DNA from: a virus
DNA length: 52,337 nt
Virus record (IMG/VR): IMGVR_UViG_3300035199_000755
Span: 1-52,337 of that record
Strand: one strand, 5' to 3'
This document shows positions 1,362 through 30,589 of this stretch, one piece after another. Numbering within the stretch: the first letter of the stretch is position 1; the number at the start of each line of letters is the position of its first letter. The notes under the pieces are model-generated. The model made no database searches. It was not told the origin of the DNA and saw only the letters and a list, made by a program, of their open reading frames with translations. Position numbers and translations under genes: made by a program.

Positions 1362-1742
1362 TTAAACCTCTAAATAGGCATGAACGACTACTCTATCATT
1401 GGTTATTTCGCCTATATCTACAACAATCGATTGCTCATTAATCGACATAATTTCGTGTATAACTTTGTTTCCACCCCGTTGCAATAACACACTAACGTTA
1501 TTATCACATTGTACTATTTCCTGAATACTGTTTATGCTGGTGCTAAACTCTATTGACCGTAGTTGTCGAACTCGGCTGCCACGGAGATTTCTGAGAATGA
1601 ACTGCATTGAAAGTAATTCGACACCAGAAATCTCGTTTCCGTCGATGCTCAACTGAAAGCCTGTTTTGGATTCGAATATGTCGCTTGATAAATCTATTCT
1701 ATCCTTCAGGGATTCGCTTAAATATACTCTATCTTCTGACAT
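1362..1742 (-). CDS. Hypothetical beta-rich protein
   Basis: Start chosen at the ATG at 1740-1742 (MSEDRVYLSESL) because it has CAGG about 7 bases upstream. A longer version would need a GTG at 1769 deeper inside the upstream gene. About 126 residues, alternating hydrophobic and polar residues typical of beta structure (SVLLQRGGNKVIHEI, IVVDIGE). The start overlaps the pterin-dehydratase-fold gene by 14 bases. I do not recognise the family; a small virion or adaptor protein would fit the company. Confidence 0.55.
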   Translation of the reverse strand: MSEDRVYLSESLKDRIDLSSDIFESKTGFQLSIDGNEISGVELLSMQFILRNLRGSRVRQLRSIEFSTSINSIQEIVQCDNNVSVLLQRGGNKVIHEIMSINEQSIVVDIGEITNDRVVVHAYLEV

Positions 1743-2136
1743 ACGAAACCTGATTATAGATTTGGTCACTCACTTTTGCATAATTTAAATCACGTTTTGT
1801 TACGTCATTAATATCATGGGTATATACCGTGATTGCAACATTCAGATCACGTATGACCTGCAATCCGTGGTGGCCAGAGGCTTGCTGATATCGTAATAAC
1901 TCGCCTAAAAATCCGACAAGGGATTCAGCGTTTTGAAACTCGTACTGTCTTTGTAGTTCGTTTCTGCCACCTATATTAACCTGCTTCCACTTAAACGATT
2001 TTACTGTTACAGGAAGATCATCATTCGATTTATTAATCGGAAGATCCATCACTTTTTCTAGCGAATTTTTATATAGCATTTGCTCACTATGAACATTTTT
2101 ATTCAGTGTAGTCATATGTTCAAGCAACGATTCCAT
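1729..2136 (-). CDS. Pterin-4a-carbinolamine dehydratase (PCD/DCoH)-fold protein
   Basis: 135 residues. Residues 47-130 align without gaps to the core of the PCD/DCoH family: the aromatic/basic strand FKWKQV, the helix around FQNAESLVGFL, the HH pair at 89-90, then VAITVYTH (His107) and TKRDLNYA (Asp116). The family dehydrates 4a-hydroxytetrahydropterin and can also act as a dimerisation partner. The usual Glu four residues before the first His is Gln85 here, and the Pro after HH is Gly, so activity is uncertain. The first 45 residues are an extra unmatched extension. It sits among small structural-looking genes, not with pterin or hydroxylase genes, so a structural or regulatory use is as likely as catalysis. 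Confidence 0.7.
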   Translation of the reverse strand: MESLLEHMTTLNKNVHSEQMLYKNSLEKVMDLPINKSNDDLPVTVKSFKWKQVNIGGRNELQRQYEFQNAESLVGFLGELLRYQQASGHHGLQVIRDLNVAITVYTHDINDVTKRDLNYAKVSDQIYNQVSYVRR

Positions 2137-5255: not shown

Positions 5256-5804
5256 CTACGCTGGTAATTTACCGGCACCGACAGCTAAGGGAGATAGGGG
5301 CTCTGGAGTATAGTTGCCAGTGGGGCTAACATTATACTGGGACTCTAATAAGTCTCTTAAGCTCTCTGACGAAGATTCATCATAGTTTTCTTTTATGTAA
5401 TTTAATGCCCGTGTTATTATAACCGTTCTTACATCTAGAAGGTTCTCGTGATTGTCAACGAGACGAGCAACATTCGCAGCAAATTCATTCAAATTCAACG
5501 GAGCCTTATCGGGTTTAGTAGGTTCAGATACATCAACGTCTTCAGATCCTTCCGTGTTAGCATCTGGTTTATCTGTTTCATCGGTGGAAGCTTCTTCGGT
5601 GGAAGCTTCTTCAGCCTCTTGTTCGAATAAAAATTGTAATGATGAAATAAGCGAATATTTTTCTTGTACAACAGTAGATTCAGATTCAAAGTTAATTAAA
5701 ATAGAATCAATTTGATCGTCAACGGATACCGTTGATAGTCTTTGACTCGTTTCCGTCAATACGTTTTGTATTAATGATCTTAGGTATTGCTTTGTTAAAA
5801 TCAT
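5256..5804 (-). CDS. Hypothetical acidic protein with N-terminal tag-like helix
   Basis: 182 residues. The first 20 (MILTKQYLRSLIQNVLTETS) form a basic amphipathic helix ending LTE, close to the opening of the gene at 6417-6767. Residues 58-100 are low-complexity Glu/Ser/Thr/Asp. Residues 100-155 are helical (LNEFAANVARLVDNHENLLD). The last 25 are Pro/Gly-rich. The start overlaps the SOD-fold gene by 4 bases. No catalytic motif was found. A virion or scaffold-delivered protein is possible because of the N-terminal motif. Confidence 0.55.
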   Translation of the reverse strand: MILTKQYLRSLIQNVLTETSQRLSTVSVDDQIDSILINFESESTVVQEKYSLISSLQFLFEQEAEEASTEEASTDETDKPDANTEGSEDVDVSEPTKPDKAPLNLNEFAANVARLVDNHENLLDVRTVIITRALNYIKENYDESSSESLRDLLESQYNVSPTGNYTPEPLSPLAVGAGKLPA

Positions 5805-6439
5805 TTTAGCGCCTTTACCATATTCTCAGTTTTTACGAAACGTTTTTCTATAATACGCCAATTTAATTCCCGCATCATATTAGTAATGTACGCTTTTCTA
5901 TTATTGAGATAGTCTTTGCCGTACACTCTAGGCGATACATTTATAACGATTATAGGATGACAGCCGACGGGAACACCTTCACTATCACCATCGAGAGTTA
6001 CATTGATATAGCGTTGTAGAAAACTGCTAAAAATTGTGGCACCCCAGCCAGCGCGAGAGGCCATACAAGCAGCTATAAAATCCTTTTGCCAATCATCAAA
6101 AGTTCCGAAATCTCGAGTAAGTCTTAAATACGATAACGAATCCATGGATAGCTGAGAATTTGGGTCGGCTATATTAGAGAAATATAATTGACTAAGATAT
6201 ATTCCGTTCATGTTATTTATGAAATCTAAACTTAGGTCTCTGTACTCGCCACCCAGTGGCGTTGCGTTCATCCTATCTGCCACGTCTAGTTTGGCACTTG
6301 TCGTATTGAACATGTCTATTTGTGCCTCATAGCACTGTAACATAACTGTTTTTTGTTGAGCAGACAATAACTCTGTGGAAAGACTATACTGTTTCGGGCT
6401 TGCAACGAAGGATTCTTTAAGGTTTTTTTCTTGTGGCAT
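5801..6439 (-). CDS. Fe/Mn superoxide dismutase-fold protein lacking metal ligands
   Basis: 212 residues. The C-terminal two thirds follow the Fe/Mn-SOD pattern: FGTFDDWQKDF (111-121), SRAGWGATIF (128-137), HPIIVINVSPRVYGKDYLNN (161-180) and MMRELNWRIIEKRF (188-201). In active SODs the third block is DVWEHAYY. Here the ligand Asp is Asn167 and the ligand His is Arg171. The N-terminal ligand His region reads LQCYEAQ, and the second ligand His falls on Ser83. All four ligands appear lost, so dismutase activity is unlikely. It lies among virion-like small genes, so a structural or binding role is inferred. Confidence 0.7.
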   Translation of the reverse strand: MPQEKNLKESFVASPKQYSLSTELLSAQQKTVMLQCYEAQIDMFNTTSAKLDVADRMNATPLGGEYRDLSLDFINNMNGIYLSQLYFSNIADPNSQLSMDSLSYLRLTRDFGTFDDWQKDFIAACMASRAGWGATIFSSFLQRYINVTLDGDSEGVPVGCHPIIVINVSPRVYGKDYLNNRKAYITNMMRELNWRIIEKRFVKTENMVKALK

Positions 6440-6804: not shown

Positions 6805-7245
6805 TTATGACACAAGTTGACTAACATCAACCGCTGCCGTCCTTAATACATCAAGACCTGTATGGTCTCTATAATCGTCTAAATAAATAACCCTATTTAT
6901 CCCAGAGTTCACTATGCACTTTGCACAATGTTCGCATGGAAGTGTCGTAACATACATAATTTTTTCTTTCTGGATATTATAATCAAGTTTCAATAACGCA
7001 TTTATTTCAGCGTGAATAAATCCACTTTCGCCGGGTTTTATGGACTGAACCTTGTTTTTTCCCCCTTTATAGTTACCGTTATATCCTAACGCAAGTACTT
7101 GTGTATTATCAAAAGTAACAATTACTGCGCCTACCTTTCTCCTGGGGTCTACAGACCTATTGGCTATAAGAAGTGCCATTGACATCCATATATCGTCCCA
7201 CAAAGGTCTACCATTTTCATCTCTACGCAGTTGCATTTTATTCAT
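6805..7245 (-). CDS. dCMP deaminase
   Basis: 146 residues with the zinc-dependent cytidine/deoxycytidylate deaminase signature: HAE at 78-80 (His zinc ligand and catalytic Glu) and PCEHC at 103-107 (two Cys ligands). It converts dCMP to dUMP, the substrate for thymidylate synthesis. The length fits phage and bacterial dCMP deaminases. It overlaps the thymidine kinase gene by 8 bases and ends the nucleotide/sugar operon. With ThyX encoded at 37.2-37.9 kb it would complete a dCMP to dTMP route. In a hydroxymethylcytosine phage it would also compete with the dCMP-hydroxymethylase candidate for dCMP. Confidence 0.92.
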   Translation of the reverse strand: MNKMQLRRDENGRPLWDDIWMSMALLIANRSVDPRRKVGAVIVTFDNTQVLALGYNGNYKGGKNKVQSIKPGESGFIHAEINALLKLDYNIQKEKIMYVTTLPCEHCAKCIVNSGINRVIYLDDYRDHTGLDVLRTAAVDVSQLVS

Positions 7246-7798
7246 AATCTACTTTATTCATCAACGGATGGTGTTTCCAGCACCTTGGTTCGTATTTATC
7301 AGAGCCACCTATAGATATAATATTTCCATCTTCAACTTTTTTATACGTATACTGAGCATCTGATCCGCAGACTGTACAGACGGCATTACATTTTTTAACA
7401 ATGGTAGCGTATGGTAACATCGATGATATCTCTTCAAACGGCTCGCATCCGGAAGATAAATCTAGTGTACTAACGACAATATCTTTACCGTGTTTATACA
7501 AGAAAATTAATGATTCGGCTATTCCATCGACCATAAACGCTTCGTCAACAGCAACAACGTCTATACTGGATTTAGCGTCTATCAAATGTTCTATAATATC
7601 ATTCCCATTAACAATTGTCTTACACGGAACTGCTGTTCCCGAATGCGTTACAATTTCTTTATGGGCATATCGTGCATCAATTTCTGGTTTAAATACCGCG
7701 GTGGTTTTTCCCTGGTAATGACATCTATCAAGATAATTTAAAAATCGTGTGGTTTTTCCGCTAAACATTGGACCACAATATACAATAAATCCAGCCAT
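7238..7798 (-). CDS. tdk: Thymidine kinase (type II)
   Basis: 186 residues. The P-loop GPMFSGKT (9-16) is diagnostic for type II thymidine kinase. VAVDEAFM carries the Walker B Asp and the catalytic Glu. A zinc-binding lasso is present with CTVCG and a later RCWKHH. The length matches bacterial and phage enzymes. It phosphorylates thymidine, and usually deoxyuridine, to salvage dTMP. The start overlaps the upstream IMPDH/GMPR-family stop by one base. Together with the neighbouring dCMP deaminase it supplies pyrimidine deoxynucleotides in the infected cell. Confidence 0.92.
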   Translation of the reverse strand: MAGFIVYCGPMFSGKTTRFLNYLDRCHYQGKTTAVFKPEIDARYAHKEIVTHSGTAVPCKTIVNGNDIIEHLIDAKSSIDVVAVDEAFMVDGIAESLIFLYKHGKDIVVSTLDLSSGCEPFEEISSMLPYATIVKKCNAVCTVCGSDAQYTYKKVEDGNIISIGGSDKYEPRCWKHHPLMNKVDYE

Positions 7799-8832
7799 TA
7801 TGCTCCCAATAAAATGTGGGTGGAACTCTCTGTTTGTCCAGCCGTTGTTTGTCTAATAAACTTTGCGCGAGTTTGGAGCTCTGTGATATTTCGAGTACCC
7901 GAATATGATAAACCAGATACTAAACCATTGCGTAAATCCCTTAAAATATTTTCTACTGGCCCTTTATAGTTTATAAACGTCGAAATTCCTTCATTCGATG
8001 AGTATTTTCCCCGCCATTCCACTTGAGCTTTTTTACTCGCCATTCCACGATATTCTTTTTTAACGCCGTGTTTTGTAGTTACTTTTTCACCGGGAGACTC
8101 GTCTGTTCCCGCAAGTAAAGATCCTAACATAACAAAATCTGCTCCGGCTGCGAGGGCTTTTACGATATCGCCGCTTGTACGGATTCCTCCATCGGCGATG
8201 ACCCTTGCATCGCGATCTGATTTAGCACAGTCAAATATTGTCTGTAGGCCTGGTACACCATGACCCGTCTGAACCCTCGTAGAACATATCGATCCCCCTC
8301 CTATATTACATCGAACGCTATCGGCACCCCAATCAGATAATTCATTAAATCCTGTGAGCGTCGCAACGTTTCCTGCCATAATATGCACATCGAAACCTAA
8401 CTCTCGTCTAATGGCAGAGATGGCATCTTTAACCAGCGCATGATGGCCATGGGCAACATCAACGCAGATAACCCTCGCGCCTGCTTTAAACACACTTACT
8501 GCACGCTCTAAATAATTGGTAGTTACTCCTATCGCAGCCCCTATAAGACCATTTCCAGACGCCCGGACGGCATCAGATACAAGAGTTACCTGTTGTTCGA
8601 TGGTGTTATACCTATGAATAATTCCTAACCCACCCATTTTAGACATTTCCACAGCCATTGAAGTACCGGTAACAGTATCCATAGGGGCTGACACAATAGG
8701 TAAGCTTAATTCGTGATTATTATCCAACGCATTACCAACGTAAACCTCGTTTCGACTTTTTATGTCTGAATACTGGGGTACTAGTAATACATCACTATAC
8801 GTTAACGCAATTTCGATATTTTTATATTCCAT
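7798..8832 (-). CDS. IMP dehydrogenase / GMP reductase family enzyme
   Basis: 344 residues forming one TIM barrel. The catalytic-cysteine loop is GGGSICSTR (Cys183), the phosphate-binding parts are [11 protein letters not shown] and [10 protein letters not shown], and the flap region is around EYRGMAS. The CBS pair of typical IMPDH is absent, giving GMP-reductase length, and the [12 protein letters not shown] stretch suits either enzyme. The tail [11 protein letters not shown] resembles the IMPDH C-terminus. I therefore cannot decide between IMP to XMP oxidation and GMP to IMP reduction. Either would adjust the guanine/adenine pool during replication. It sits mid-operon, 6 bases after the GIY-YIG gene. 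Confidence 0.88.
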
Positions 8833-9122: not shown

Positions 9123-10109
9123 TTACCTCTTAAAAACATGGTATCCGTTAAATGACGTGGATCGTACCAGCGATTTACATAAATCCTTATATCCCAGCTT
9201 CGCAGCTCTGTGGGATGCAAGAATTAATGCCCAGTCTTTCCAGTACCCATCCGGAGAATAGGTGGTCACCAAAGCTTTTATTTTATTCACATCAGATGTG
9301 TTTCTTAAAGCCTCCTGAAATACATCTAAATGCTCGAACCTGGAAAACACGCACTTGGGCATTTTCGGCATTGGATCCCATACGCTCTTATTGTTCGATT
9401 TACCATTTAAAATTTTATTGCACATACTAAAATGTCTCTTATATACGTGCAAACTATTACTCATGTGTGTATATGAACCAAGACCAACATCAAGTTCCTG
9501 CGCAAGCTTTTCCTGAAACAATGTAAATGCTGGCACGTCATACGTTAAGCCGAATATGAGATCAGATGACCTCATGTTTACGATCATATGTAACTTATTT
9601 TCTCTGATAAAAAACTGAAGTGTCAAAGTACAAGGAACGTCTTTTTTATCTAAGTTATCACGTGGCGATTTCACGTGAACCACAGCTCTCCTAGAATCTG
9701 GATCCCTAGAAAGTTCATTCAACACAAATTGCCACTGGGAATTATCGCCTACTTTTAGTGTATCGTACATTGATGTTCTTGGATGAGGCTTAAAAATTCT
9801 TGCGCCGTATGCTGAATTTGCAGTTACACCGTCATCAGAAATATCAGACCAGAATGACGAATAGTTAGAAATCCAATCAGTCTTATTATCTCCAATAAAG
9901 TACCATACAGCTTCAGCTATTGTATACCCCAGCGAAGTATTTCTTTCTGGAACATATAATAGTCTATTTCTCGGGTTCGTTATACGAAATGATACGCCAA
10001 GAGATTCTTTGACCAGCATCCCACGTGGACTTGATACATATTCCGGTGATGTATATACACGATCTATTAAGTCATAAAAGCACTCTGTAAATGATTCGTA
10101 TGTTTTCAT
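9123..10109 (-). CDS. ThyA-family enzyme, probable dCMP hydroxymethylase
   Basis: 328 residues starting MKTYESF at the ATG in a TAATG overlap with the epimerase stop. Visible thymidylate-synthase motifs: Glu66 in AEAVWYF, catalytic Cys160 in VPCTLTLQF, Arg180 in MRSSD, and His221/Tyr223 in LHVY. The residue that reads uracil O4/N3 is Asn in ThyA (PFNIA). Here it is Asp191 (TYDVPA), the substitution that marks T4 dCMP hydroxymethylase (Asp179). This suggests dCMP plus methylene-tetrahydrofolate gives hydroxymethyl-dCMP. A separate ThyX in the window can make dTMP, which supports the reassignment. dTMP synthase remains possible. Confidence 0.8.
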   Translation of the reverse strand: MKTYESFTECFYDLIDRVYTSPEYVSSPRGMLVKESLGVSFRITNPRNRLLYVPERNTSLGYTIAEAVWYFIGDNKTDWISNYSSFWSDISDDGVTANSAYGARIFKPHPRTSMYDTLKVGDNSQWQFVLNELSRDPDSRRAVVHVKSPRDNLDKKDVPCTLTLQFFIRENKLHMIVNMRSSDLIFGLTYDVPAFTLFQEKLAQELDVGLGSYTHMSNSLHVYKRHFSMCNKILNGKSNNKSVWDPMPKMPKCVFSRFEHLDVFQEALRNTSDVNKIKALVTTYSPDGYWKDWALILASHRAAKLGYKDLCKSLVRSTSFNGYHVFKR

Positions 10110-11035
10110 TAAAGTCCCCACCAATCAAACGTCATTTTTAATCCTGTTTCAAAATTTACGATCGGCTTATACCCTAGTTCATCGCTTATTTTTTTAACGT
10201 CTGCCAATGTGTGCATTACATCTCCTTCTCGCGCTGGAGCACTACGAACATCAATATCGTTAAATCTTTGTTCAAAATACGATAAAATTTCATTGTTTGA
10301 TACGCTGGTACCCGTTCCGACGTTATAACACGCACCTTCGAATGTTTTCTTATGGTTTGCAGCTAAAATATTTGCGTAAACTACGTTATCAACATGGACC
10401 ATATCCCTTGTCTGTTCACCGGTGCCATCAGACCTCAAATATCGACCATCGGCAATGGCATTACACCAAGCAGAAATCGCTGTACTGTATGGTGAATTTC
10501 CGTATTGATTACCACCAAAAACGTTAAAATATCGTAAACAAACCGCATCGAAATCATAAAGCTTACAAAATAACTGTATAAATTGTTCACAACATGACTT
10601 TTGTAACGCGTATGGAGATTCTGGACTATGAATATTGAGTTCTGGTGTTGGTAAATTACTGGCATCACCGTAAACAGAGCTGCTAGAAGCAAAAATAAGC
10701 CTATCGATATTCCCTCTACAGGCTTCCAGTAACTTAACGGTCTTCATAACATTATCGTCAGTCGTTTGGGCAGGATTTTTAACTGAATATGCTACACGTG
10801 GATTCGCGGCATGATGAAACACGATATCGAATTTTCCCTGCCTAACAAGACTGAGGACACGTTCTGACGCAAAACAAACCCAGATCTTCTTTATATCACA
10901 ATTTTCAACAAAACTTTTATGACCGTTTGATAAATCATCGACACACGTAACGTCCCATCCATCTTTTACAAGCTGTAACACCAAGTTCGATCCTATGAAT
11001 CCAGCACCACCTGTAACAAGAGCCCTTCTTTTCAT
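10109..11035 (-). CDS. NAD-dependent UDP-sugar 4-epimerase
   Basis: 308 residues, extended short-chain dehydrogenase/reductase. The NAD-binding GGAGFIGS is at 9-16, the catalytic Ser region is ASSSSVYG and the catalytic pair is YALQK. RYFNVFG and TRDMVHVDNV are typical of GalE/WbpP-like epimerases. Reactions known for relatives include UDP-Glc/Gal, UDP-GlcNAc/GalNAc and UDP-Xyl/Ara 4-epimerisation. Two operon neighbours upstream are a UDP-glucuronate decarboxylase, which makes UDP-xylose, and a Glf-like mutase. UDP-xylose to UDP-arabinopyranose is therefore an attractive assignment, but specificity cannot be read by eye. Confidence 0.85.
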   Translation of the reverse strand: MKRRALVTGGAGFIGSNLVLQLVKDGWDVTCVDDLSNGHKSFVENCDIKKIWVCFASERVLSLVRQGKFDIVFHHAANPRVAYSVKNPAQTTDDNVMKTVKLLEACRGNIDRLIFASSSSVYGDASNLPTPELNIHSPESPYALQKSCCEQFIQLFCKLYDFDAVCLRYFNVFGGNQYGNSPYSTAISAWCNAIADGRYLRSDGTGEQTRDMVHVDNVVYANILAANHKKTFEGACYNVGTGTSVSNNEILSYFEQRFNDIDVRSAPAREGDVMHTLADVKKISDELGYKPIVNFETGLKMTFDWWGL

Positions 11036-11044
11036 TATATACTC

Positions 11045-12106
11045 CTATAAATTTAAAAATGCTTCTCGACCTGTTTTAGCAACATCTTCCAAAAAACTAG
11101 CTGCAAATTCAACACTAAAATCGTATTTTGACATGAGCGCCATCTTTTGTTCCTGAATTATTTCACTACGTTGCTCAAACGTAAGTTTCGATAACTTAAC
11201 GACGTTAGAAATAACGTCAACTTCTGAGGATACACACCACTTTTTTCCAAGAATGTCGTTCACCAAAAACTCTTCAGGAACCATACCGGGTGTGCCTACA
11301 ACAATGTTTTCAAAATATCTCGCAGTTACAAACCCCTGGTGCGAGTATCTATCTTTTGTAATATGCGTTGTGCAAATAAATTTGCTTAACTTTACCATAG
11401 ATTCATAGAAAGATACCCTGTCACAGAATGATACAAACTTGCTGTTTTTTATTAATTCCTCTGGAGGTGGCCGCTCTGGGGAACGTTGTAGCCAGTTTCC
11501 CCATACTTTCGATTGTATTCCACGATGACGTAATCCCTTTGCAACGTTGGAATAATACTTCGAAAACTGATATTCTCTCTCATAATTGTTTCCAACGTAA
11601 CCATATTCTGGTAGAACATAATCTGGTTTTATAAGTTGTTTAAAGTCGGTCCAGAACATGAACGAACGACGGGGTAACGTAAATTCGCAAGGCTTAAATG
11701 TCGGTTCTACGATAAGCATTTCTGGCCACTGCTTTTCATCATTAGATGTAATTTTTAAATCGGCATCCCAAACAATAACCGGTATTTTACCGTGATAATA
11801 ATTTAGTAACTCAAGCTGTCTATCATAATCTGGTTCAAATTTCGCTGGACCATAATTTTTATAAGTTGGCCAACGCCATTCAATAAACAACAAATCTAAA
11901 TCTGGGAAACGACTATCCGCGTATATCAATCCTGGGTATGCAATTTGCTCCCTCTTTTTTTGCATAGAGTATACAACGTGATTTCTATCTAAAAGTTCCT
12001 GCACCAATAGGGGCCTACCGTACCTATGACCGTCAGGTGTATTGGCAGTTTTACATTGATCGAACGATTCACAAAATCCCCAATAACTGATACCGATATT
12101 AGACAT
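11045..12106 (-). CDS. Putative GT-B glycosyltransferase
   Basis: 353 residues. The N-terminal half has Rossmann-like strands (IGISYWGF, VIVWDADL). The linker carries YGYVGNNYEREYQF. The C-terminal half has GFVTARYFENIVVGTPGMVP, the kind of Glu-containing loop that binds the sugar nucleotide in GT-B enzymes. There is no signal peptide or transmembrane helix, so it acts in the cytoplasm. It is flanked by the kinase and the epimerase in an operon of UDP-sugar enzymes. Candidate acceptors are hydroxymethylcytosine in phage DNA, a virion protein, or a host glycan. DNA is favoured because of the adjacent hydroxymethylase-type gene. Confidence 0.7.
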   Translation of the reverse strand: MSNIGISYWGFCESFDQCKTANTPDGHRYGRPLLVQELLDRNHVVYSMQKKREQIAYPGLIYADSRFPDLDLLFIEWRWPTYKNYGPAKFEPDYDRQLELLNYYHGKIPVIVWDADLKITSNDEKQWPEMLIVEPTFKPCEFTLPRRSFMFWTDFKQLIKPDYVLPEYGYVGNNYEREYQFSKYYSNVAKGLRHRGIQSKVWGNWLQRSPERPPPEELIKNSKFVSFCDRVSFYESMVKLSKFICTTHITKDRYSHQGFVTARYFENIVVGTPGMVPEEFLVNDILGKKWCVSSEVDVISNVVKLSKLTFEQRSEIIQEQKMALMSKYDFSVEFAASFLEDVAKTGREAFLNL

Positions 12107-12634
12107 TTATTTTTCCTCCACAAAATCTAAAATTTCAGTTAATTCTCTATCTAAATTTTCATCATCGACATTTAACGATAAAACGTCGCACGAAGTCCAA
12201 CTTTTAAAATTTTCATAACCGTTATGAACGCTATTTAAAAATGACTCATCAATAATATCAAATTGGTCAATAACGTTATTATAAAAACTCCTGTGTAAAA
12301 GTACTATCTTTACAGACATTTGCTTACACATCGTATCAATAGATTTTAATACATTAAAATCTGTTTCTCGACCGCACATGGGGCCGTACACATACTCTGA
12401 CGGATATGCCCTGTCGAGTATAACGGACGTATTAGTTTGTTGAATAAACTCAAGTAGATAGGGTAACGAGTATTTTGTGGTATTTAAAAACCATGTACCT
12501 TCATCAAGTTCTTCAAAATGTTTCCATTCACCAGCGCTTTTAAACACCGGTATCGATAATTTTTTACTCAGGGCATTTGCGATATTCGTTTTACCACACC
12601 CATCTGGTCCTTCAAGTATTATAACTGTCGTCAT
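12107..12634 (-). CDS. Thymidylate kinase-like deoxynucleotide kinase
   Basis: 175 residues. The P-loop is GPDGCGKT (9-16). ILDRAYPSEYVYG is the DRx(Y/F)PSE-type motif of phage thymidylate-kinase-like proteins and contributes to base and phosphate binding. IVLLHRS precedes the lid. It is shorter than bacterial Tmk (about 205-210). It should phosphorylate a deoxynucleoside monophosphate; in this operon dTMP or hydroxymethyl-dCMP are the plausible substrates. The start shares one base with the mutase stop, and its stop directly abuts the glycosyltransferase start. Confidence 0.75.
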   Translation of the reverse strand: MTTVIILEGPDGCGKTNIANALSKKLSIPVFKSAGEWKHFEELDEGTWFLNTTKYSLPYLLEFIQQTNTSVILDRAYPSEYVYGPMCGRETDFNVLKSIDTMCKQMSVKIVLLHRSFYNNVIDQFDIIDESFLNSVHNGYENFKSWTSCDVLSLNVDDENLDRELTEILDFVEEK

Positions 12635-13728
12635 TATTCTAACTCCGTAGATACTCTTTTTAAGGATGAAGCAATTACTTGATCCATGTCATAATACTTG
12701 TAATCAGCTAGTCGACCACCAAAGACATAGTTTGAAAGTTTATCCGCTTCATTTTTGTATAGCTTAAACAACTCATTGTTTCGTTTATCGTTTATGGGAT
12801 AATACGGCGTTTTACTTCGTGTATATTCGACCGGTGTCTCAGTTGTTACGACCGTCTTCTTTGACTTTACCCCGTCAAAAAACTTATGTTCGATTGTTCT
12901 TGTGTGGGGTACATCAATAGAAGTATGATTGATTGTTACGACGCCTTGAAAATTCTCGGTGTCGTGGATCTTATGATCGAACCTCAATGCTCTATACTCT
13001 AAATCGCCATATTCATAACCAAAAAATTCATCCAATTTACCCGTATAGACAACCTTGGTAGCAATACTCTCGAAATACTTACGATCAGAAAAAAAATCCA
13101 CATCGAACTCAATCGGAATACCATCAAGCAGCTTATCAAATATTTTTGTATAGCCCCCAATTGGAATACCACAAAATTTATCGTTATAATAATTTGCGTC
13201 GAATGTTAACCTAAATGGTAGGCGCTTAATAATAAAACTAGGTAGCTCACTTGGATGTTTCATCCAGTGTTTTTCTGTATATCCACAAATTAACTTTTCA
13301 TAGACGTCCTTTCCTAACGCCGACAAAGCAAATTCTTCGAGGTTTTTTGGATTATCAAAATGAACCCTCGTTTCTTCTATTTTTTGAAGAGCCTCCGCTG
13401 GAGTTTTTACACCCCACAACTGATGAAACGTCCACATATTAAATGGTAAAGAATAAAATTCATCGTGATATTTCGCAATCGGAGAATAAATAAATTGCTT
13501 AAATTCTACTAGGTTATTTACATATTTCCATATTTTATCGCTGCTGGTGTGAAATATATGGGGACCATATACATGAACGTTTACCCCTTCAACGTTTTTT
13601 GTGTATGCATTCCCACCAATGTGAGGACGTTTTTCTAATACTAAACATTTTTTTCCATTTTTACTTGCCTCGTGAGCAAAAACTGACCCAAAAAATCCTG
13701 CGCCAACGATTACGTAATCATACATCAT
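12634..13728 (-). CDS. glf: UDP-galactopyranose mutase family protein (possible UDP-arabinopyranose mutase)
   Basis: 364 residues. The FAD-binding start is YVIVGAGFFGSVFAHE (5-20) and EKRPHIGGNAYT follows. The Glf signature GPHIFHTSSDKIWKYVN is at about 55-71, and the C-terminus has YYPINDKRN and VFGGRLADYKYYDMDQV. Length and motifs match bacterial Glf, which interconverts the pyranose and furanose forms of UDP-galactose. Related enzymes also use UDP-arabinose. Lying between a UDP-xylose-forming decarboxylase and a 4-epimerase plus glycosyltransferase, it could supply UDP-arabinofuranose or UDP-galactofuranose. It overlaps the decarboxylase gene by 11 bases. Confidence 0.88.
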   Translation of the reverse strand: MMYDYVIVGAGFFGSVFAHEASKNGKKCLVLEKRPHIGGNAYTKNVEGVNVHVYGPHIFHTSSDKIWKYVNNLVEFKQFIYSPIAKYHDEFYSLPFNMWTFHQLWGVKTPAEALQKIEETRVHFDNPKNLEEFALSALGKDVYEKLICGYTEKHWMKHPSELPSFIIKRLPFRLTFDANYYNDKFCGIPIGGYTKIFDKLLDGIPIEFDVDFFSDRKYFESIATKVVYTGKLDEFFGYEYGDLEYRALRFDHKIHDTENFQGVVTINHTSIDVPHTRTIEHKFFDGVKSKKTVVTTETPVEYTRSKTPYYPINDKRNNELFKLYKNEADKLSNYVFGGRLADYKYYDMDQVIASSLKRVSTELE

Positions 13729-14710
13729 TACCTAATATACCCTTAAAATATTTTATTGTTTTAACTAATCCCGCCTCTAAGTCTATTTTAGGATACCACT
13801 CAAGATATTTCACAGCTTTATCTATATTCGGCCTTCTTTGTGTTGGATCATCAACGGGTAAGGGTTTGTAGGTTATCTCTGACGTCGATCCCATCAATTT
13901 CTTTATCATCGCTGCAAGCTCGATCATCGTATGCTCAGTCGGATTGCCGATATTAATAGGGGTTGAGCAAGAAACATTCGTTAAGTTCATTAATGAAATA
14001 AGGCCGCGGATTTGATCATCTACATAGCAAAAACTACGTGTTTGTTTTCCGTCGCCGAACATCGTTATATTTTTATTGCGAAAACATTGATATATTAAAT
14101 TACTAACGACTCTGCCATCATCTGGATCCATATAAGGACCGTATGTGTTAAAGATTCTTGCGACTCGAATATCCAACCCTTCTGTCCTAGCATAATCATA
14201 GCATAACGATTCAGCCGCCCTCTTTCCCTCATCATAACATGCTCGAGGACCTATGGAATTCACATTCCCACGATATTCTTCTCTTTGTGGATGCAATAAT
14301 GGATCACCGTATATTTCCGACGTAGAAGTAAAAAGCAATCGAGCGTTATACCTCAAAGCAAGTTTACATACGTTATTTGTTCCAACAACCGATGTTAACA
14401 TTGTCTTTATTGGATCCTGCTGATACTTTGGGGGAGATGCAGGACAGGCAAGGTGATATATCTGGTCAACTCCGTCAGGAAAGTGGCGTTTAACAAGTAT
14501 ACTATTAGAAATCTGAGGTGATGTTACATCATCGCTAAAGTACCTAAAGCGATGATCCGTAAGGGCCAATTGTTTAACTTCATTATATCGATTATTGGTT
14601 GAAAAATTATCTATGCAGACGACCTTATTAACTGGTCCCTCTAATAATTTTTTACATAAATTCCACCCTAAAAAACCTGCTCCACCTGTTACAATAACAT
14701 TAATTCCCAT
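13718..14710 (-). CDS. UDP-glucuronate decarboxylase (UDP-xylose synthase) family
   Basis: 330 residues, extended SDR fold. NAD-binding GGAGFLGWN is at 8-16. HLACPASPPKYQQDPIKTM is characteristic of UDP-xylose synthases and dTDP-glucose-dehydratase relatives. TSTSEIYGDP and YDEGKRAAE hold the catalytic Ser/Thr, Tyr and Lys. RIFNTYGPYMDPDDGRVV closes the site. It would turn host UDP-glucuronate into UDP-xylose with NAD recycling. It is the first gene of the sugar/nucleotide run and overlaps the mutase by 11 bases. No ribosome binding site is visible before its ATG. Confidence 0.88.
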   Translation of the reverse strand: MGINVIVTGGAGFLGWNLCKKLLEGPVNKVVCIDNFSTNNRYNEVKQLALTDHRFRYFSDDVTSPQISNSILVKRHFPDGVDQIYHLACPASPPKYQQDPIKTMLTSVVGTNNVCKLALRYNARLLFTSTSEIYGDPLLHPQREEYRGNVNSIGPRACYDEGKRAAESLCYDYARTEGLDIRVARIFNTYGPYMDPDDGRVVSNLIYQCFRNKNITMFGDGKQTRSFCYVDDQIRGLISLMNLTNVSCSTPINIGNPTEHTMIELAAMIKKLMGSTSEITYKPLPVDDPTQRRPNIDKAVKYLEWYPKIDLEAGLVKTIKYFKGILGNDV

Positions 14711-14759: not shown

Positions 14760-15833
14760 TTAATTCATTCCACCGAACAACGTAAGCGCTATAAGGCCCG
14801 GTGCTTTATCATTGATATAGATTCCAGAAAACAGCGTCTGAGTTCTACCACCTACATAAGACATAGCAGATTCTAATCGCTTACTAACGTCTGGATTTGA
14901 TGCCATATCAGATGTAACAAGCAATAACAACACACCCGTCTCAGGATTGTTTGTGGGTGCAAGACACGGAGATCCTCTTAAACACCCCTGGAATACAATC
15001 GAGCCTAAGTCTAATGATGATGGATCCTTTACTACGGTGCTACCCAGGAACATACGTCCGTTGGTGCTTAAGCACCTTTCAAGATCCTTTGAATCAAATG
15101 TTTGAATTTCTGAGCTCTGAGCTGCGAATTTTAGCACCTGCCAGAATAGCTTCGCAAATGTCATGTTTGCGGCAGGATACATGTTTAACATTCCGACTTT
15201 ACCCCTAAGCAACTGTAACTGCTTCTCGTTATCAACAATGATGTGGGGATGGTTTCTAACATCGTTTAACACATTAGCGTAATTATTTCCGATAGTCGGA
15301 TTTAACAGTTCCTGCGCTGATGGTTTACTGACGATATACACAACTTTACCTGCGGCTCCAGACGATTCCATAAACCGCGACATACAACCATGAAGTGCAT
15401 GGGATGCGCTTCCTGTACCGCCGCCACCGCCGGCGAGGACGAATAACCAATCGACTTTTCCAAACCTCGCCCTTAAAGCGTCCTCAACCATAGCGCTATT
15501 TTCGCTTAAAATCTTCTTTCCCAGCTGAACATCTTTACCAACACCATCGGCGCCTGGTAACAGTAAGAAGTGCGCAGGATCCAAGCCACCTGGTTGATCC
15601 TTGGTTGTTGTATTTACCAAAAAAGTTTTTGTAAAACCTAAATCAAGAAATGCTTTGGCGAGCTTTCCGCCGCCTCCTCCGACGCCTAGAAAACCGCAAT
15701 TAATTGCTGATTGAGCTGAATTTTCCGGTAACATGCGTTCATCTTGGGCTGTCGGTTCATCATCATAATTTCCTAAGAAATCAAAATCATCATCGACTGG
15801 ATTAATATACGCATCATCATTGCCTGTACTCAT
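14760..15833 (-). CDS. Tubulin/FtsZ-superfamily GTPase
   Basis: 357 residues, good ribosome binding site (AGGAG). After an acidic 40-residue head, GFLGVGGGGGKLAKAF (47-62) matches the FtsZ T1 loop. AGGGGGTGSASH (134-145) is the tubulin signature loop T4. IIVDNEKQLQLL (198-209) matches the FtsZ region around IPNDKLL. FDSKDLERC (246-254) carries Asp247 and Asp250 where FtsZ has the two T7 catalytic acids. GTP binding and filament formation are therefore likely. There is no obvious FtsA/ZipA tail peptide, and it does not read as PhuZ or TubZ. It sits between the fibre genes and the sugar operon. Confidence 0.82.
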   Translation of the reverse strand: MSTGNDDAYINPVDDDFDFLGNYDDEPTAQDERMLPENSAQSAINCGFLGVGGGGGKLAKAFLDLGFTKTFLVNTTTKDQPGGLDPAHFLLLPGADGVGKDVQLGKKILSENSAMVEDALRARFGKVDWLFVLAGGGGGTGSASHALHGCMSRFMESSGAAGKVVYIVSKPSAQELLNPTIGNNYANVLNDVRNHPHIIVDNEKQLQLLRGKVGMLNMYPAANMTFAKLFWQVLKFAAQSSEIQTFDSKDLERCLSTNGRMFLGSTVVKDPSSLDLGSIVFQGCLRGSPCLAPTNNPETGVLLLLVTSDMASNPDVSKRLESAMSYVGGRTQTLFSGIYINDKAPGLIALTLFGGMN

Positions 15834-15910: not shown

Positions 15911-16978
15911 CTAATAGGTTTCAAATTCCCAGACCGACACTAGATCAACATCGTTTGGGTTGTTAGTTGGATTAAGACTTAAGCCCACGATATTACCCTC
16001 AGAAAAAGACGCGTCGTGATCAAATTCAAATTCGTATGATGTATTCGCAGACGCCATATCCACGGTCACTGTTGCGGTTGCGCTCGTATCAAGGTTTGCA
16101 TTTCCATCCGTGTTTTTATGTAGGGCAATTGCAGTAGAGCCGGCTGCGTTGGTTGATCTAGCAATGACTTTAATTAGCACTCCGTCATACGGCACAACAA
16201 ATTTATTGTTTACGCCGGGCGATGCATTTTGTCCGGTCTGATTAAACCTTATATACGCTTGGCCTGTACCTGCAGAATCATATTTGTGGGTATGGATGTG
16301 TTTTTGTTTTGCCCAAAGACTACCAGATATAACAACGTCGCCGCCGAATACCGAGGTTCCCCTTGTAACACTGTTCCTTGAGTCTATTGTTCCTGAAACG
16401 AAGAATGCGGTGTCACCTCCCGGCTCAACATTTTCCGTACCTGCTTTACTGCTGAGGATTATTAAATCGGCATTCGCTTCTAGTAGAGTGGTTTCAGCTT
16501 CAGAATCATACCCACCATATAACACACCAGACACGACCAAGTCTCCACCAAAAACAGAGGTGCCTTTTGTTCCCGAGTCCTTTGATTCTATTGCTCCTGA
16601 AACGAAGAATAGGGTGTCACTTGCCGGTTCAGCATTATGGGAACCTTCCTGACTACTGACAACAATCTGGTCGGCATTAAACTCTAGAAATGTTCCGTTG
16701 GCTTCATTGTCAAATCCACCATATAATACGCCAGATATGACTAAATCACCACCAAAGACGGAAGTACCTGTATAATCCTTACCCTCGTCTTGGCCTTCGC
16801 CCGTGGTGCTGCCTGATACGTAGAATACACTGTCGATACCAACATCGGTGGGAATTCTAGGAAAATCCCCTGAGTCTGATACGTTCGCAATAATTATGCT
16901 TCCAGTAAGACCTATTTCAGAACCGTGTTCACCGTCCTGATCTATTGATCCTGATATTTGACTTGAAACTAAACCCAA
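15911..16978 (-). CDS. Tail-fibre-like repeat protein, TTG start
   Basis: 355 residues. An in-frame TGA lies two codons before TTG at 16976-16978, and AGGGGA precedes it, so TTG is the start. The paralogue at 17037-18710 has ATG-Ala-Gly-Leu-Val at the same place, which supports this. The N-terminus (GLVSSQISGS, IGLTGSIII) is shared with that paralogue. Three copies of the fibre module occur at residues 51-86, 123-154 and 191-222. The C-terminal 130 residues are a different beta-rich domain starting near HIHTHKYDS. It is likely a virion fibre or spike subunit. Confidence 0.75.
   Translation of the reverse strand: MGLVSSQISGSIDQDGEHGSEIGLTGSIIIANVSDSGDFPRIPTDVGIDSVFYVSGSTTGEGQDEGKDYTGTSVFGGDLVISGVLYGGFDNEANGTFLEFNADQIVVSSQEGSHNAEPASDTLFFVSGAIESKDSGTKGTSVFGGDLVVSGVLYGGYDSEAETTLLEANADLIILSSKAGTENVEPGGDTAFFVSGTIDSRNSVTRGTSVFGGDVVISGSLWAKQKHIHTHKYDSAGTGQAYIRFNQTGQNASPGVNNKFVVPYDGVLIKVIARSTNAAGSTAIALHKNTDGNANLDTSATATVTVDMASANTSYEFEFDHDASFSEGNIVGLSLNPTNNPNDVDLVSVWEFETY
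16313..16828 (-). repeat. Three fibre modules in the 355-residue fibre protein
   Basis: Three copies of the module FFVSG...SVFGGDxVxSGxLY are spaced about 70 residues apart. The stretches between them are also repeated (YGG-D-E-LE-NADxI-SS). The DNA copies are similar but not identical. They belong to the same family as the 14 modules in the next two genes. Confidence 0.8.
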
Positions 16979-17002
16979 AGTTCATTTCCCCTATTAATAA
17001 GA

Positions 17003-17028
17003 TGTGGGGAGGGAGACCCCTCCCCGCA
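17003..17028 (-). terminator. GC-rich hairpin after the 557-residue fibre gene
   Basis: An 8-bp perfect stem GGGGAGGG/CCCTCCCC (17006-17013 with 17018-17025) has a 4-base loop and extends by three more pairs, one of them G-U. It starts nine bases below the stop codon of the 17037-18710 gene. On the minus strand it is followed by ATCTTATTAATA, not a pure U run, so it may be a weak terminator, a 3' mRNA stabiliser or an attenuator between fibre genes. Confidence 0.5.
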
Positions 17029-17036
17029 CCAAATAA

Positions 17037-18710
17037 TTATAGCTCTCCGTTAGCACCTGGACCGTAGGTACCACCTGGCAGCTCTTCCATGAGCAACTTA
17101 TATCGTTTACCTGTATCATTATTTCTAAGTGATAGGAAGGTTGGTTCCTCAATCATAGTCCAGTTACCTCGATCATTCTGTAAGTGAAGGTCGCCCGTAT
17201 ATACGTTTTCCCATCGCTTAGATGCAGATCCTAAATCCTGACTGTTATCTGCAGCTGGAAGTAGTCCGCCACCGGTAACTGTAACATTTTTACTGGAATT
17301 ACACTGTAATGTGATACCACCGGCATCAGATAGAAGCTTAATCGACGCGTCGCCATTTCCTTGATCTGCATGGAGAACGATTGTCTCGCTTGTACCACCG
17401 TCTGCAGTTAAAAGAATCGCATTTGCTCCATCAAGTCCTGACTTGATGTTAATACCACCATCATCAGAAAGCAGTTGAATCGATGCTGCTCCTTCCGTTG
17501 CAGCTGTACCTTGATTGGCATGGATAACGATGTTTTCGCTCGTACCACCATTCGCCTCAATGCGAATTGCATTAACTGCATCTAACTTAGACAGTAGACC
17601 AATACCACCGGCATCAGACTCCAGCTGAACTGAGGCATCGGATTCCGTTGCAGCGGAAGCACCAGTACCTTGATCGGAGTGGATGTTAATTGTCTCACTC
17701 GTCCCAGCATCTGCATGGATATAAATGCACGAATCAACATCCTCACCTGCAGTAATAATAATTGAACCGGCTGCATTTGTGATGTCAATATCTTCACCAG
17801 CAGCACCAGCTGCCTTGAACTCCATACCACCTGCCGAAGCCAATAACTGTACCGCATGCTTGTGATTCAACGATGAAGTTAAAGCTAGATGACCAGTTGT
17901 CGTCGTGTTATATCCGGTCGTACCGCAATCAATGTCTATACCACCAGCAGAATTGGCACATACTAGTTTAATTGCATCTTCTGCAGTACCGTCTGAAGAT
18001 ATTTGAAGATCACCATCGGACGGAGAGTTAATGAATATTCCTGAATCTCTGATCTGCAACTTTGTTGTTGCTGATGCACCGAGCAAGAAGTTTGTATCAT
18101 CCCAGGTGAGCTTTGCCAGTCCACCCATCGATCCTCCGTTGTTGTACTGCAACTGCGTATCACTTCCAGCCGGTCCGCCGCCAGCGATGGAATCACCATC
18201 ACCATCGTACAGTGTACCAGAAATAACAACATTACCGCCAAAGACTGCTACTGCACCGTTTTCATTGTTTTTATTCGACGCAGAACCAGAGACGTACCAG
18301 TGAATATCCTCACCAGTAATTGCATGGTTTTGCTCATCACCGTCAAAGAAACCCACGGTGTCCTCTGAGGCATCTATTTTGAGTATACCGCCCTTGTTAA
18401 CTGAGTTAACAATAACGCTCTTATTATCCTGTGAGTCTGCTTCCTGTGCAGTAACTTGATCACCGATGCGTAGAGCACCTGAAATCATTACATCACCGCC
18501 AAAAACGGCTGAGCCCCATCCATCATCTTCATTTAGTGTGCCCTGTGTACCTGAGACATAGAACACTGTATCAGTACCCACGACTGACGTAAAGTCAATG
18601 TCCTGAGTACTATTCTTTATTATTAAACTTCCGGTTAAACCTATCGTTGAGTGACCATCGCCTATCACGTCAGTCGATCCCGATATGTTACCGACAACTA
18701 AACCTGCCAT
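17037..18710 (-). CDS. Tail-fibre-like repeat protein
   Basis: 557 residues, strong ribosome binding site (AGGAGG). The N-terminus resembles the 355-residue neighbour (GLVVGNISGS, IGLTGSLII). Fibre modules occur at 48-80 and 137-168. Residues 325-468 hold three tandem copies of a different repeat containing GTSExIxIHxDQG. Residues 482-540 form a C-terminal module (LGSASKRWENVYTGDLHL, then NDRGNWTMIEE) shared with the 1840-residue protein. The sequence is Gly/Ser/Thr/Asp-rich with regular short strands, which suggests a trimeric beta-helical fibre. Receptor binding is inferred. Confidence 0.78.
   Translation of the reverse strand: MAGLVVGNISGSTDVIGDGHSTIGLTGSLIIKNSTQDIDFTSVVGTDTVFYVSGTQGTLNEDDGWGSAVFGGDVMISGALRIGDQVTAQEADSQDNKSVIVNSVNKGGILKIDASEDTVGFFDGDEQNHAITGEDIHWYVSGSASNKNNENGAVAVFGGNVVISGTLYDGDGDSIAGGGPAGSDTQLQYNNGGSMGGLAKLTWDDTNFLLGASATTKLQIRDSGIFINSPSDGDLQISSDGTAEDAIKLVCANSAGGIDIDCGTTGYNTTTTGHLALTSSLNHKHAVQLLASAGGMEFKAAGAAGEDIDITNAAGSIIITAGEDVDSCIYIHADAGTSETINIHSDQGTGASAATESDASVQLESDAGGIGLLSKLDAVNAIRIEANGGTSENIVIHANQGTAATEGAASIQLLSDDGGINIKSGLDGANAILLTADGGTSETIVLHADQGNGDASIKLLSDAGGITLQCNSSKNVTVTGGGLLPAADNSQDLGSASKRWENVYTGDLHLQNDRGNWTMIEEPTFLSLRNNDTGKRYKLLMEELPGGTYGPGANGEL
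17307..17738 (-). repeat. Tandem GTSExIxIHxDQG repeats in the 557-residue fibre
   Basis: Three consecutive repeats of about 45-53 residues (325-374, 378-424, 428-468). Each contains GTSE, IHxDQG and LxSDxGGI. A single related element (IELQSDDGGITIEADG) occurs in the 1840-residue fibre near residue 795, so the element is also used outside the tandem array. Confidence 0.75.
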
Positions 18711-28788: not shown

Positions 28789-30282
28789 ATGAAACATGAA
28801 TTAATTCGAAAATTTATTAGATCACATATACACCGGATGAATGAAGGAAAAGCGGCGGCAGTGACCCTGCTTCCGCAGTTCGATGATCCAAACCTTACAT
28901 ACGCACCCTTCACCAGGGATATAATCGATAAATTTCTACCCAGAACATACGATAAATTTCCAGGTAGTGGAGACAATACGGTGGTTGGTCGCTTATTATA
29001 TTCTCTTGCAAAAGCTGGATTAGTTAACTCAGAAAGACCACCCAAATTTCAATTTGGTTCAAGTAGACTGGCAGCATATTCAAAATATGCGTCAGAAAAA
29101 CTCCTATTTCCGGGAGAAGATCCAGAAATAGCTAGCGCAGCAAAGTCCATGAAGCAAAAATTTGGAGATCTTGATATTGATGTACAGTTTGCACAAGGAA
29201 TAAAGACAAAAGATATAGCCAGCTTTATTACACAAAAATTTCCGTTTATAAAAGCATTACCGAAAGCAGAAGCGCATCTTGCCGTTCGATATGGTAACCA
29301 CGTATACCAAGTAGACCTAATAAACGTCCAAAAAGAGCATGAGTCAACGGAGCTTGTTTTTCAGTTTAGTTCGTTTAAAGACCTCGCAAGCGAAGTTAAA
29401 GGAGCGTTTCAAACGGAGCTGTTAAAAGCTGTAGCTGCTATGAGAGATTCAAACGTTGAATTACAAGAGATGGATAAATTTTCGATAGATAATCCTGCCC
29501 ATGAATTTTCAATACAATACAAGAAATTCATTGATTGTGGATATATACCCTCGAACCTAAGATATAAGGTGGCAAAGCTAGCTAAGGGAATTCAACTGGT
29601 TGTTGATTTTAAAAACCCTTCTTTCAAACGAGGGAAATCACTCGCATGTCCCCTAACAAATGTACTATCTTATGACGATCTTGATCAAATTGCAAAATTT
29701 CTGCTAGATGATGATTCTGTAACAGGCGCGATAATTTTATCAGCCGTCGATTTAGCAAAATATGTCGGTGATAACTTCTCACCGTCAAAAAAACAAATAA
29801 TTGCAACAATCATACAGGACAATAGAGCGATAAATAGACTGGACGAAGAAGATCGAAAAAAAGGACTTAACATAATTTTACAGCTTTTAAAATTAAACAG
29901 TGGTATATCTGAACAGCATTGGATGCAATTTATGTTGCCTCGTACAACTACAAGTTTCTTTAAAGATAAAAAACTTGCATATAAACAACAAAAATTAAAT
30001 GACAATAAAACGCTTACAAAGATATTACGTAAACTTCAAATAAAAGACAGTTTATCAGAAAAAGAAAAATCGATAATAAATTCGACCTTAGAAGAAGTTG
30101 GTAGTGGAGATCCCATATTTGCAATACAACAAAAAATCTTTATGAATCAGCAGGCGGCGCGAGCCATTAGAGATACGGATTTCGATTTTCTCAATAACCG
30201 TTCTTCAACCTATCTAAATTCACGCGATTTTTCTTACAGTATGCCTGGTAAAGCTCGTCGGAAGTTACCCCGCACAGAATAA
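28789..30282 (+). CDS. Nucleotidyltransferase-like protein, only plus-strand gene
   Basis: 497 residues. FGSSRL at 89-94 followed by GDLDIDVQF (126-134) and VYQVDLINV (172-180) gives the G-S, D-x-D and third Asp pattern of the DNA polymerase beta-type nucleotidyltransferase fold. The gap between GS and DxD is longer than usual. The first 20 residues (MKHELIRKFIRSHIHRMNEG) are a basic amphipathic helix similar to other protein ends in the window. The C-terminal half is helical and Lys-rich. The start has no clear ribosome binding site. The end overlaps the convergent dUTPase-family gene by 92 bases. The substrate is unknown; proteins, tRNA or small molecules are all possible. Confidence 0.6.
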   Translation: MKHELIRKFIRSHIHRMNEGKAAAVTLLPQFDDPNLTYAPFTRDIIDKFLPRTYDKFPGSGDNTVVGRLLYSLAKAGLVNSERPPKFQFGSSRLAAYSKYASEKLLFPGEDPEIASAAKSMKQKFGDLDIDVQFAQGIKTKDIASFITQKFPFIKALPKAEAHLAVRYGNHVYQVDLINVQKEHESTELVFQFSSFKDLASEVKGAFQTELLKAVAAMRDSNVELQEMDKFSIDNPAHEFSIQYKKFIDCGYIPSNLRYKVAKLAKGIQLVVDFKNPSFKRGKSLACPLTNVLSYDDLDQIAKFLLDDDSVTGAIILSAVDLAKYVGDNFSPSKKQIIATIIQDNRAINRLDEEDRKKGLNIILQLLKLNSGISEQHWMQFMLPRTTTSFFKDKKLAYKQQKLNDNKTLTKILRKLQIKDSLSEKEKSIINSTLEEVGSGDPIFAIQQKIFMNQQAARAIRDTDFDFLNNRSSTYLNSRDFSYSMPGKARRKLPRTE

Positions 30283-30589
30283 GTAACTCCAGCGTATAAT
30301 GCAGGGACTCAACAAGCTCTTCTAAAAATTCGCTTCGATCGAATTCTTTGTTTTCGGTCTTACGATGCTTTTTCCAGTTTTTCAAATGAGCAAGTGCCTC
30401 GAACATTTCTTCTACAGAACGCAAGGTAATATCACGACAAAACCTTTGATCGTATTTATCAGTTAAATCAACTGGCCAAGACGGTAGATCGTCTGATTTT
30501 GTTCTCTTATACTCTTGCATTAATTTTTCCTGAAGGTTAAACATGCTTTCAAGTCGATTAGATAACAATTTTTTCTTCTCCTCGCCCAT
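30191..30589 (-). CDS. All-alpha NTP pyrophosphatase, dimeric dUTPase/dCTPase family
   Basis: 132 residues. SVEEMFEALAHLKNWKKH (68-85) gives the ExxE helix, LEELVESLHYTLELL the second metal-binding helix, and YCKKNRVNLDRLKNGY the Lys/Asn/Arg/Tyr C-terminal motif of dimeric dUTPases. The superfamily includes the T4 gp56 dCTPase/dUTPase. The usual Asp in EELVD is Glu here. It would hydrolyse dUTP, or possibly dCTP, to the monophosphate and so feed dCMP/dUMP to the deaminase and hydroxymethylase-type enzymes. It overlaps the upstream small gene by 32 bases. An internal ATG at 30544 is an alternative start. Confidence 0.75.
   Translation of the reverse strand: MGEEKKKLLSNRLESMFNLQEKLMQEYKRTKSDDLPSWPVDLTDKYDQRFCRDITLRSVEEMFEALAHLKNWKKHRKTENKEFDRSEFLEELVESLHYTLELLILCGVTSDELYQAYCKKNRVNLDRLKNGY

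Follow-up and report, generated by a model that had tools for sequence, protein, structure and literature searches.

What does a virus do with six closely packed genes that combine nucleotide-sugar enzymes, a glycosyltransferase and a homologue of thymidylate synthase? The question is raised by a 52,337-base record of an uncultured virus (IMGVR_UViG_3300035199_000755), the whole of which is called the window here. Six contiguous open reading frames (ORFs), all on the minus strand, were confirmed at 9123–14710. In gene order they encode a UDP-glucuronate decarboxylase (UDP-xylose synthase; UXS), a Glf-type mutase, a P-loop kinase, a glycosyltransferase (GT), a short-chain dehydrogenase/reductase (SDR) of the 4-epimerase type and a ThyA-family enzyme. 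The junctions between them are −11, −1, 0, +9 and −16 bp, in agreement with the initial annotation of six genes that overlap or lie within ten bases of each other. The names given there are also correct, as the family matches hold, with the kinase assignment weaker than the others.

The initial annotation proposed a pathway to arabinosyl-hydroxymethylcytosine (arabinosyl-hmC) DNA. The part of this proposal in which hydroxymethyl-dCMP (hm-dCMP) is made, phosphorylated and glycosylated on DNA is supported by the residues of the ThyA-family enzyme, a separate ThyX, the homology of the GT and the linkage of the genes, while the sugar is a prediction. We consider it very probable that the operon glycosylates hmC in DNA and, with modest confidence, favour L-arabinofuranosyl-hmC as the product. 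The ThyA-family enzyme would convert dCMP and methylene-tetrahydrofolate to hm-dCMP, which the P-loop kinase would phosphorylate, and a phage polymerase would build in hmC instead of C. UXS would convert UDP-glucuronate, taken from the host or made by an unseen part of the genome, to UDP-xylose, the 4-epimerase would turn this into UDP-L-arabinopyranose and the mutase would yield UDP-L-arabinofuranose. The GT-B enzyme, which resembles T4 DNA β-glucosyltransferase (BGT), would then attach the sugar to the hydroxymethyl group on the DNA, and the modified base would shield the phage DNA from restriction and CRISPR nucleases. The sequence supports the families, the catalytic residues and the linkage; from these we infer what each enzyme converts and produces, which sugar is attached and by what linkage, that DNA is the acceptor and that the modification is protective, the last by analogy with T4- and RB69-type precedents.

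The base synthase and the glycosyltransferase

The ThyA-family gene (9123–10124; an internal ATG at 10109 is a possible alternative start) matches PF00303 with an E-value of 5e-26. Its closest relative of known structure is the CMP hydroxymethylase MilA (E = 2e-43 against the PDB); next come thymidylate synthases and T4 gp42, the latter about 28% identical to it. In the T4 enzyme Asp179 picks cytosine rather than uracil, a hydroxymethylase is recognized by Asp145, three residues ahead of the catalytic Cys, plus Ser94 and Tyr96, and the choice between dCMP and CMP is reflected in Ser169/Arg123 of T4 versus Ala176/Lys133 of MilA (PMC6400193, PMC5175136). The operon enzyme carries all of these published dCMP-hydroxymethylase signature residues. 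The cytosine-selecting Asp noticed initially is confirmed as Asp196, which is invariant in all 54 readable rows of the family alignment; Asp162 lies three residues before the catalytic Cys165, Ser104-x-Tyr106 is present and Glu71 also belongs to the signature. The residues that contact the deoxyribose are Ser186 and Arg145, and a MilA-like specificity for CMP was rejected on this pair. The synthesis of dTMP was likewise rejected as the role of this enzyme; a ThyX (37192–37908, minus strand; PF02511, E = 6e-49) is encoded in the window, as it is in 18 of the 23 related records, which leaves the ThyA homologue free for a dedicated role. That the operon makes its own modified base, as first proposed, is thus supported by the signature residues and the separate ThyX, with hm-dCMP as the predicted product.

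The kinase (12107–12634) is a candidate hm-dCMP kinase. It matches phrog_761, a thymidylate kinase family, with an E-value of 1e-16, and beyond this no Pfam family scored above its cut-off except by a hair. A candidate dUTPase/dCTPase (dUTPase_2/nucleotide pyrophosphohydrolase; 30191–30589, minus strand), a candidate member of the T4 gp56 family, is a weak but recurring companion (PF08761, 28 bits against a cut-off of 22.9; phrog_12184, E = 1.5e-19).

The GT (11045–12106) had no match in Pfam, PHROG, NCBIfam or 50,697 phage records when searched as a single sequence, and no meaningful match in the PDB. A profile was built from the sequences of 34 relatives; searched against the PDB, it returned exactly two matches, both to T4 BGT (E = 7.7e-10). 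Aligned to four BGTs with hhalign, the profile scored 96.9% (E = 1.5e-10) over the C-terminal domain, the N-terminal alignment being less certain, and against T4 BGT alone the E-value was 4.5e-7. The GT-B assignment of the initial annotation is confirmed by an AlphaFold model (pLDDT 93.4), for which Foldseek placed T4 BGT among the best folds (E = 3e-11, TM-score 0.62). Asp114 of the GT is invariant in the 34 sequences and aligns with Asp100 of T4 BGT in three alignment modes, and Arg177, Tyr254, Arg263 and Glu266 align with Arg195, Tyr261, Arg269 and Glu272. In T4 BGT, Asp100 is the catalytic base and the other four are UDP contacts.

The family appears to be viral. Among 84,980 species genomes of bacteria and archaea, a search brought up just two relatives, one on a short contig of a metagenome-assembled genome and the other in Streptacidiphilus, and an origin of the GT from a bacterial capsule locus was rejected on this near absence. 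On the Streptacidiphilus sp. 4-A2 contig (L074), the relative of the GT shares an 8-kb stretch with a ThyA homologue and SDR genes. The frames there are broken, perhaps because a prophage has decayed or because the sequence is poor.

Viral contigs were scanned twice with the GT as the sole query, which yielded 56 viral loci. Together with the operon studied here, these fall into 34 clusters at a GT identity of 90% and into 20 at 70%. A ThyA homologue lies near the GT in 53 of the 56 loci, the other three being cut by the end of the contig (53 of 53 readable), and the kinase is linked to the GT in 54 of the 56. The linkage holds in several gene orders and down to 22% GT identity. Since more than 50 viral loci retain the linkage of GT, kinase and ThyA although the order of their genes has changed, the six-gene arrangement is not chance. 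The sugar genes vary around this trio: Glf, an epimerase and a cupin in one well supported clade; SDR2 and an epimerase, or an epimerase and a cupin, elsewhere; UXS and an epimerase in two loci (L020 and L094); a Gfo/Idh/MocA oxidoreductase and an SDR in another (L010). In the loci with the most distant GTs none of the sugar genes was recognized. A constant synthase, kinase and GT with variable sugar genes fits a GT that acts on modified DNA rather than one that decorates virions or surfaces.

The donor route and the identity of the sugar

The first gene of the operon, UXS (13718–14710), matches human UXS1 (PDB entries 4gll and 2b69) in phmmer with an E-value of ∼1e-95 and contains the motifs TSTSEIYGDP and GPRACYDEGKR. 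The Glf-type FAD pyranose/furanose mutase (12634–13728; TIGR00031, E = 1e-114; PF03275, E = 5e-67; phrog_9677) is a candidate UDP-arabinopyranose mutase, and the extended SDR nucleotide-sugar 4-epimerase (10109–11035; GalE/WbgU/WbpP-type matches; galE model, E = 4e-53, below the cut-off) is a candidate UDP-xylose 4-epimerase. In Campylobacter jejuni HS:15, UXS, a 4-epimerase, a Glf-type mutase and a UDP-glucose dehydrogenase make UDP-β-L-arabinofuranose in vitro, and the mutase there was first annotated as a UDP-galactopyranose mutase (PMC10615251). Among the loci examined, UXS, the 4-epimerase and the Glf-type mutase occur together only in the operon studied here, and the set matches the C. 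jejuni route minus the dehydrogenase. The route first suggested, from UDP-glucuronate through UDP-xylose and UDP-arabinopyranose to UDP-arabinofuranose, is thus the best one, with enzymes demonstrated in C. jejuni. The accompanying claim that the operon makes its own donor stands for the three enzymes present; the fragment has no UDP-glucose dehydrogenase, and the host or a part of the genome beyond the fragment must supply the UDP-glucuronate. Proteins of PF03721, not typed further, occur in seven of the 23 related records. A phage-made pentose is probable, if by no wide measure. Arabinofuranose is the best single guess for the sugar, falling a little short of probable, with galactofuranose as the main rival. 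The operon's donor route would give the L series, unlike RB69.

Several points weigh against this pathway. The evidence comes from one incomplete contig. No UDP-glucose 6-dehydrogenase was found in the 52 kb record, itself possibly a fragment. The sugar specificity of the GT cannot be read from its sequence, and Foldseek scores several non-DNA GT4/GT-B enzymes like T4 BGT, so that the fold alone is not specific and is no proof of a relation to BGT. Three distant GT homologues (L121, L125 and L126), from a wider scan, have no ThyA homologue within about 6 kb; each record has a ThyA-family gene elsewhere. Finally, Glf may make UDP-galactofuranose in this context: it scores as a UDP-galactopyranose mutase (NCBIfam equivalog, 383 bits against a cut-off of 303.75), and those records of the Glf-clade relatives that were searched whole (63–281 kb) have no close UXS homologue.

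The last point leads to the strongest alternative, in which the same hmC-DNA pathway ends in galactofuranose (or galactose), the 4-epimerase acting as GalE on host UDP-glucose, Glf producing UDP-galactofuranose and UXS having another role or serving a second sugar. For the Glf-clade phages galactofuranose is the likelier sugar, because the records searched whole have no close UXS homologue, and these relatives, with Glf and an epimerase, probably attach it. In Lactobacillus phage ATCCB (L013; MK504445.1, 34336–37391) Glf also adjoins a T4-type BGT recognized by Pfam and a ThyA homologue, with no UXS. In Sinorhizobium and Agrobacterium phages, Glf had no obvious adjoining GT or hydroxymethylase in the stretches read. 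For the operon itself, however, galactofuranose seems unlikely: UXS is the first gene of the same operon and overlaps Glf by 11 bp, the GT falls outside the Glf-plus-epimerase clade and is nearest in sequence to the SDR2- and UXS-type loci, and UXS is paired with an epimerase and a GT in L020 and L094.

These two loci also provide the case for a pentopyranose (xylose or L-arabinopyranose) on hmC, with Glf a leftover or used for a second sugar. UXS, the epimerase, the GT, the kinase and ThyA are present in both, but their records yielded no Glf, which makes it probable that a related GT uses a pyranose. An intact Glf lies between UXS and the kinase in the operon studied here, however, which makes a pentopyranose less likely still than galactofuranose.

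Hydroxymethylcytosine or 5-hydroxycytosine

The reading of an L-arabinofuranosyl-hmC product differs from RB69 in the base as well. The initial annotation took RB69-type phages to arabinosylate hmC, which was the earlier published view (PMC6024577) and is now outdated: RB69/Mosigvirus DNA is described as containing arabinosylated 5-hydroxy-dC, made via a 5-hydroxy-dCMP synthase of the thymidylate synthase (TS) superfamily (PMC13390438). In the DNA of Thanatos a pentose is attached directly to cytosine (PMC12838424). The operon might follow the same chemistry, with 5-hydroxy-dCMP as the product of its ThyA homologue and the sugar bonded straight to cytosine C5; the synthases are of one superfamily and have the cytosine-selecting Asp in common, and arabinosylation is known on 5-hydroxycytosine.

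We compared RB69 ORF048c, suggested by its annotation and position to be the RB69 5-hydroxy-dCMP synthase, and its relatives from Klebsiella, Proteus and Acinetobacter phages with T4 gp42, Serratia PS2 gp42 and the operon family. The changes common to the RB69 group, in T4 numbering, are Trp82 to Ala, Ser94 to Thr, Asp145 to Glu, Asp171 to Asn, Phe174 to Val or Ile, Gly175 to Val and Tyr218 to Phe, and several of these positions are folate contacts in the T4 structure. The operon enzyme has the T4 residue at all seven, and Asp145, Asp171, Gly175 and Tyr218 are kept in all 43 sequences of the operon family. An RB69-type 5-hydroxy-dCMP synthase was rejected, as none of the seven shared changes is found in the operon enzyme, and since the T4 residues are kept, its product is predicted from the sequence to be hm-dCMP rather than hydroxy-dCMP. 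The comparison with the RB69 transferase that had been suggested gave no match either, and an RB69 ORF003c-type arabinosyltransferase was rejected for the GT (hhalign probability 0.2, E = 0.26). RB69-like chemistry is thus very improbable here, and RB69 does not serve as the precedent it was first taken for: RB69 and the operon differ in the base synthase, in the transferase and in the candidate donor genes.

We give equally little credence to the operon glycosylating virion proteins or the host surface with the ThyA homologue as an unrelated neighbour. In favour of this are the repetitive, probably structural genes (15911–18710) just upstream and the typical occurrence of Glf and UXS in surface polysaccharide loci. 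Against it stand the link of the GT to ThyA and the kinase in nearly every locus, in contrast to the changing sugar genes, its homology to a DNA glucosyltransferase and its near absence from bacterial genomes.

Surroundings, significance and known systems

Downstream of the operon lie genes for a thymidine kinase (7238–7798, minus strand; PF00265, E = 7.5e-40), which stays close to the cassette in many relatives, a dCMP deaminase (6805–7245, minus strand; PF00383, E = 5e-21), which also stays close to it in relatives, an IMP dehydrogenase (7798–8832, minus strand), likewise near the cassette in several relatives (L008, L009, L094), and a GIY-YIG protein. A gene at 5801–6439 (minus strand) matches the C-terminal domain of Fe/Mn superoxide dismutase (PF02777, E = 8e-12) and is found near the cassette in most relatives (L002, L008, L011 and others). 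Upstream, 49 bp from the operon, is a gene for an FtsZ/tubulin-like GTPase (14760–15833, minus strand; phmmer to FtsZ, E = 4e-8; motif GGGGGTGSA), for which no Pfam or PHROG family matched; the repetitive genes follow it. A gene for a pterin-4a-carbinolamine dehydratase-like protein (1729–2136, minus strand; PF01329, E = 2.5e-11) is possibly linked to folate or pterin supply. Elsewhere the fragment encodes DNA polymerase III α, ribonucleotide reductase, DnaB, UvsX and a gp32-like protein. In a related locus (L002, 2490–7460; also L004, L005 and L006) the DNA polymerase III α gene, directly upstream of the kinase, is split by an apparent intein or intron with a nuclease-like ORF. Since GT relatives occur on contigs of up to 281 kb, the fragment probably comes from a larger phage.

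Glycosylated hmC in DNA and the arabinosylation of DNA are already known, and so, judging by the title of a paper of 2026 that PMC13390438 cites, is the arabinofuranosylation of hydroxylated cytosine. In the open-access literature we found no paper linking UXS or Glf with phage hmC DNA and no confirmed report of an L-arabinofuranosyl-hmC nucleoside. Arabinofuranose on hmC, a UXS–epimerase–Glf donor route in a phage and a BGT-related GT family with swappable sugar cassettes would be new if true. The RB69 correction removed the claimed example of arabinosyl-hmC; the operon predicts that nucleoside by an independent route. More than 50 uncultured viral loci keep the hydroxymethylase, kinase and transferase and swap the sugar genes. 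This suggests a variation of DNA sugars akin to that of surface sugars, probably as a way of dodging nucleases and glycosylases that recognize a given sugar. We tentatively propose the wider picture of L-arabinofuranose on hmC within a large phage-borne GT family in which swappable donor cassettes (UXS, epimerase and Glf; Glf and epimerase; SDR2 and epimerase; others) set the sugar and so diversify one acceptor chemistry into many DNA sugars. The family is a source of transferases with predicted different specificities for tagging hmC, and virion DNA is predicted to show a mass increase of 132 Da for a pentose or 162 Da for a hexose.

Among known systems, glucosyl-hmC synthesis in T4 (gp42, the gp1 kinase, BGT and the gp56 dCTPase) follows the same logic as the operon, with a homologous base synthase and transferase, conserved signature residues and a gp56-family candidate in this fragment as well. 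T4 uses host UDP-glucose, whereas the operon encodes donor genes with its transferase, and the GT relation is detected by profile only. RB69/Mosigvirus and Thanatos, like the operon, encode a TS-superfamily synthase, a GT and pentose-donor genes, but they modify 5-hydroxycytosine (PMC13390438, PMC12838424), the folate-contact residues of the synthase are altered, the GT looks unrelated and the candidate donor genes of RB69 are isomerases, among them a sugar-phosphate isomerase, and a nucleotidyltransferase. C. jejuni HS:15 has the same three donor enzymes, biochemically established there, in a pathway that serves the capsule and has its own UDP-glucose 6-dehydrogenase (PMC10615251). Lactobacillus phage ATCCB resembles the operon in its adjacent hydroxymethylase homologue, BGT-family GT and Glf; its cassette has no UXS, 4-epimerase or kinase, and its GT is recognized directly by Pfam. 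This triad, an independent and minimal version of the system, also speaks for DNA as the acceptor. Its modification appears uncharacterized so far, and the phage, being cultured, is a ready test case for furanosyl-hmC DNA.

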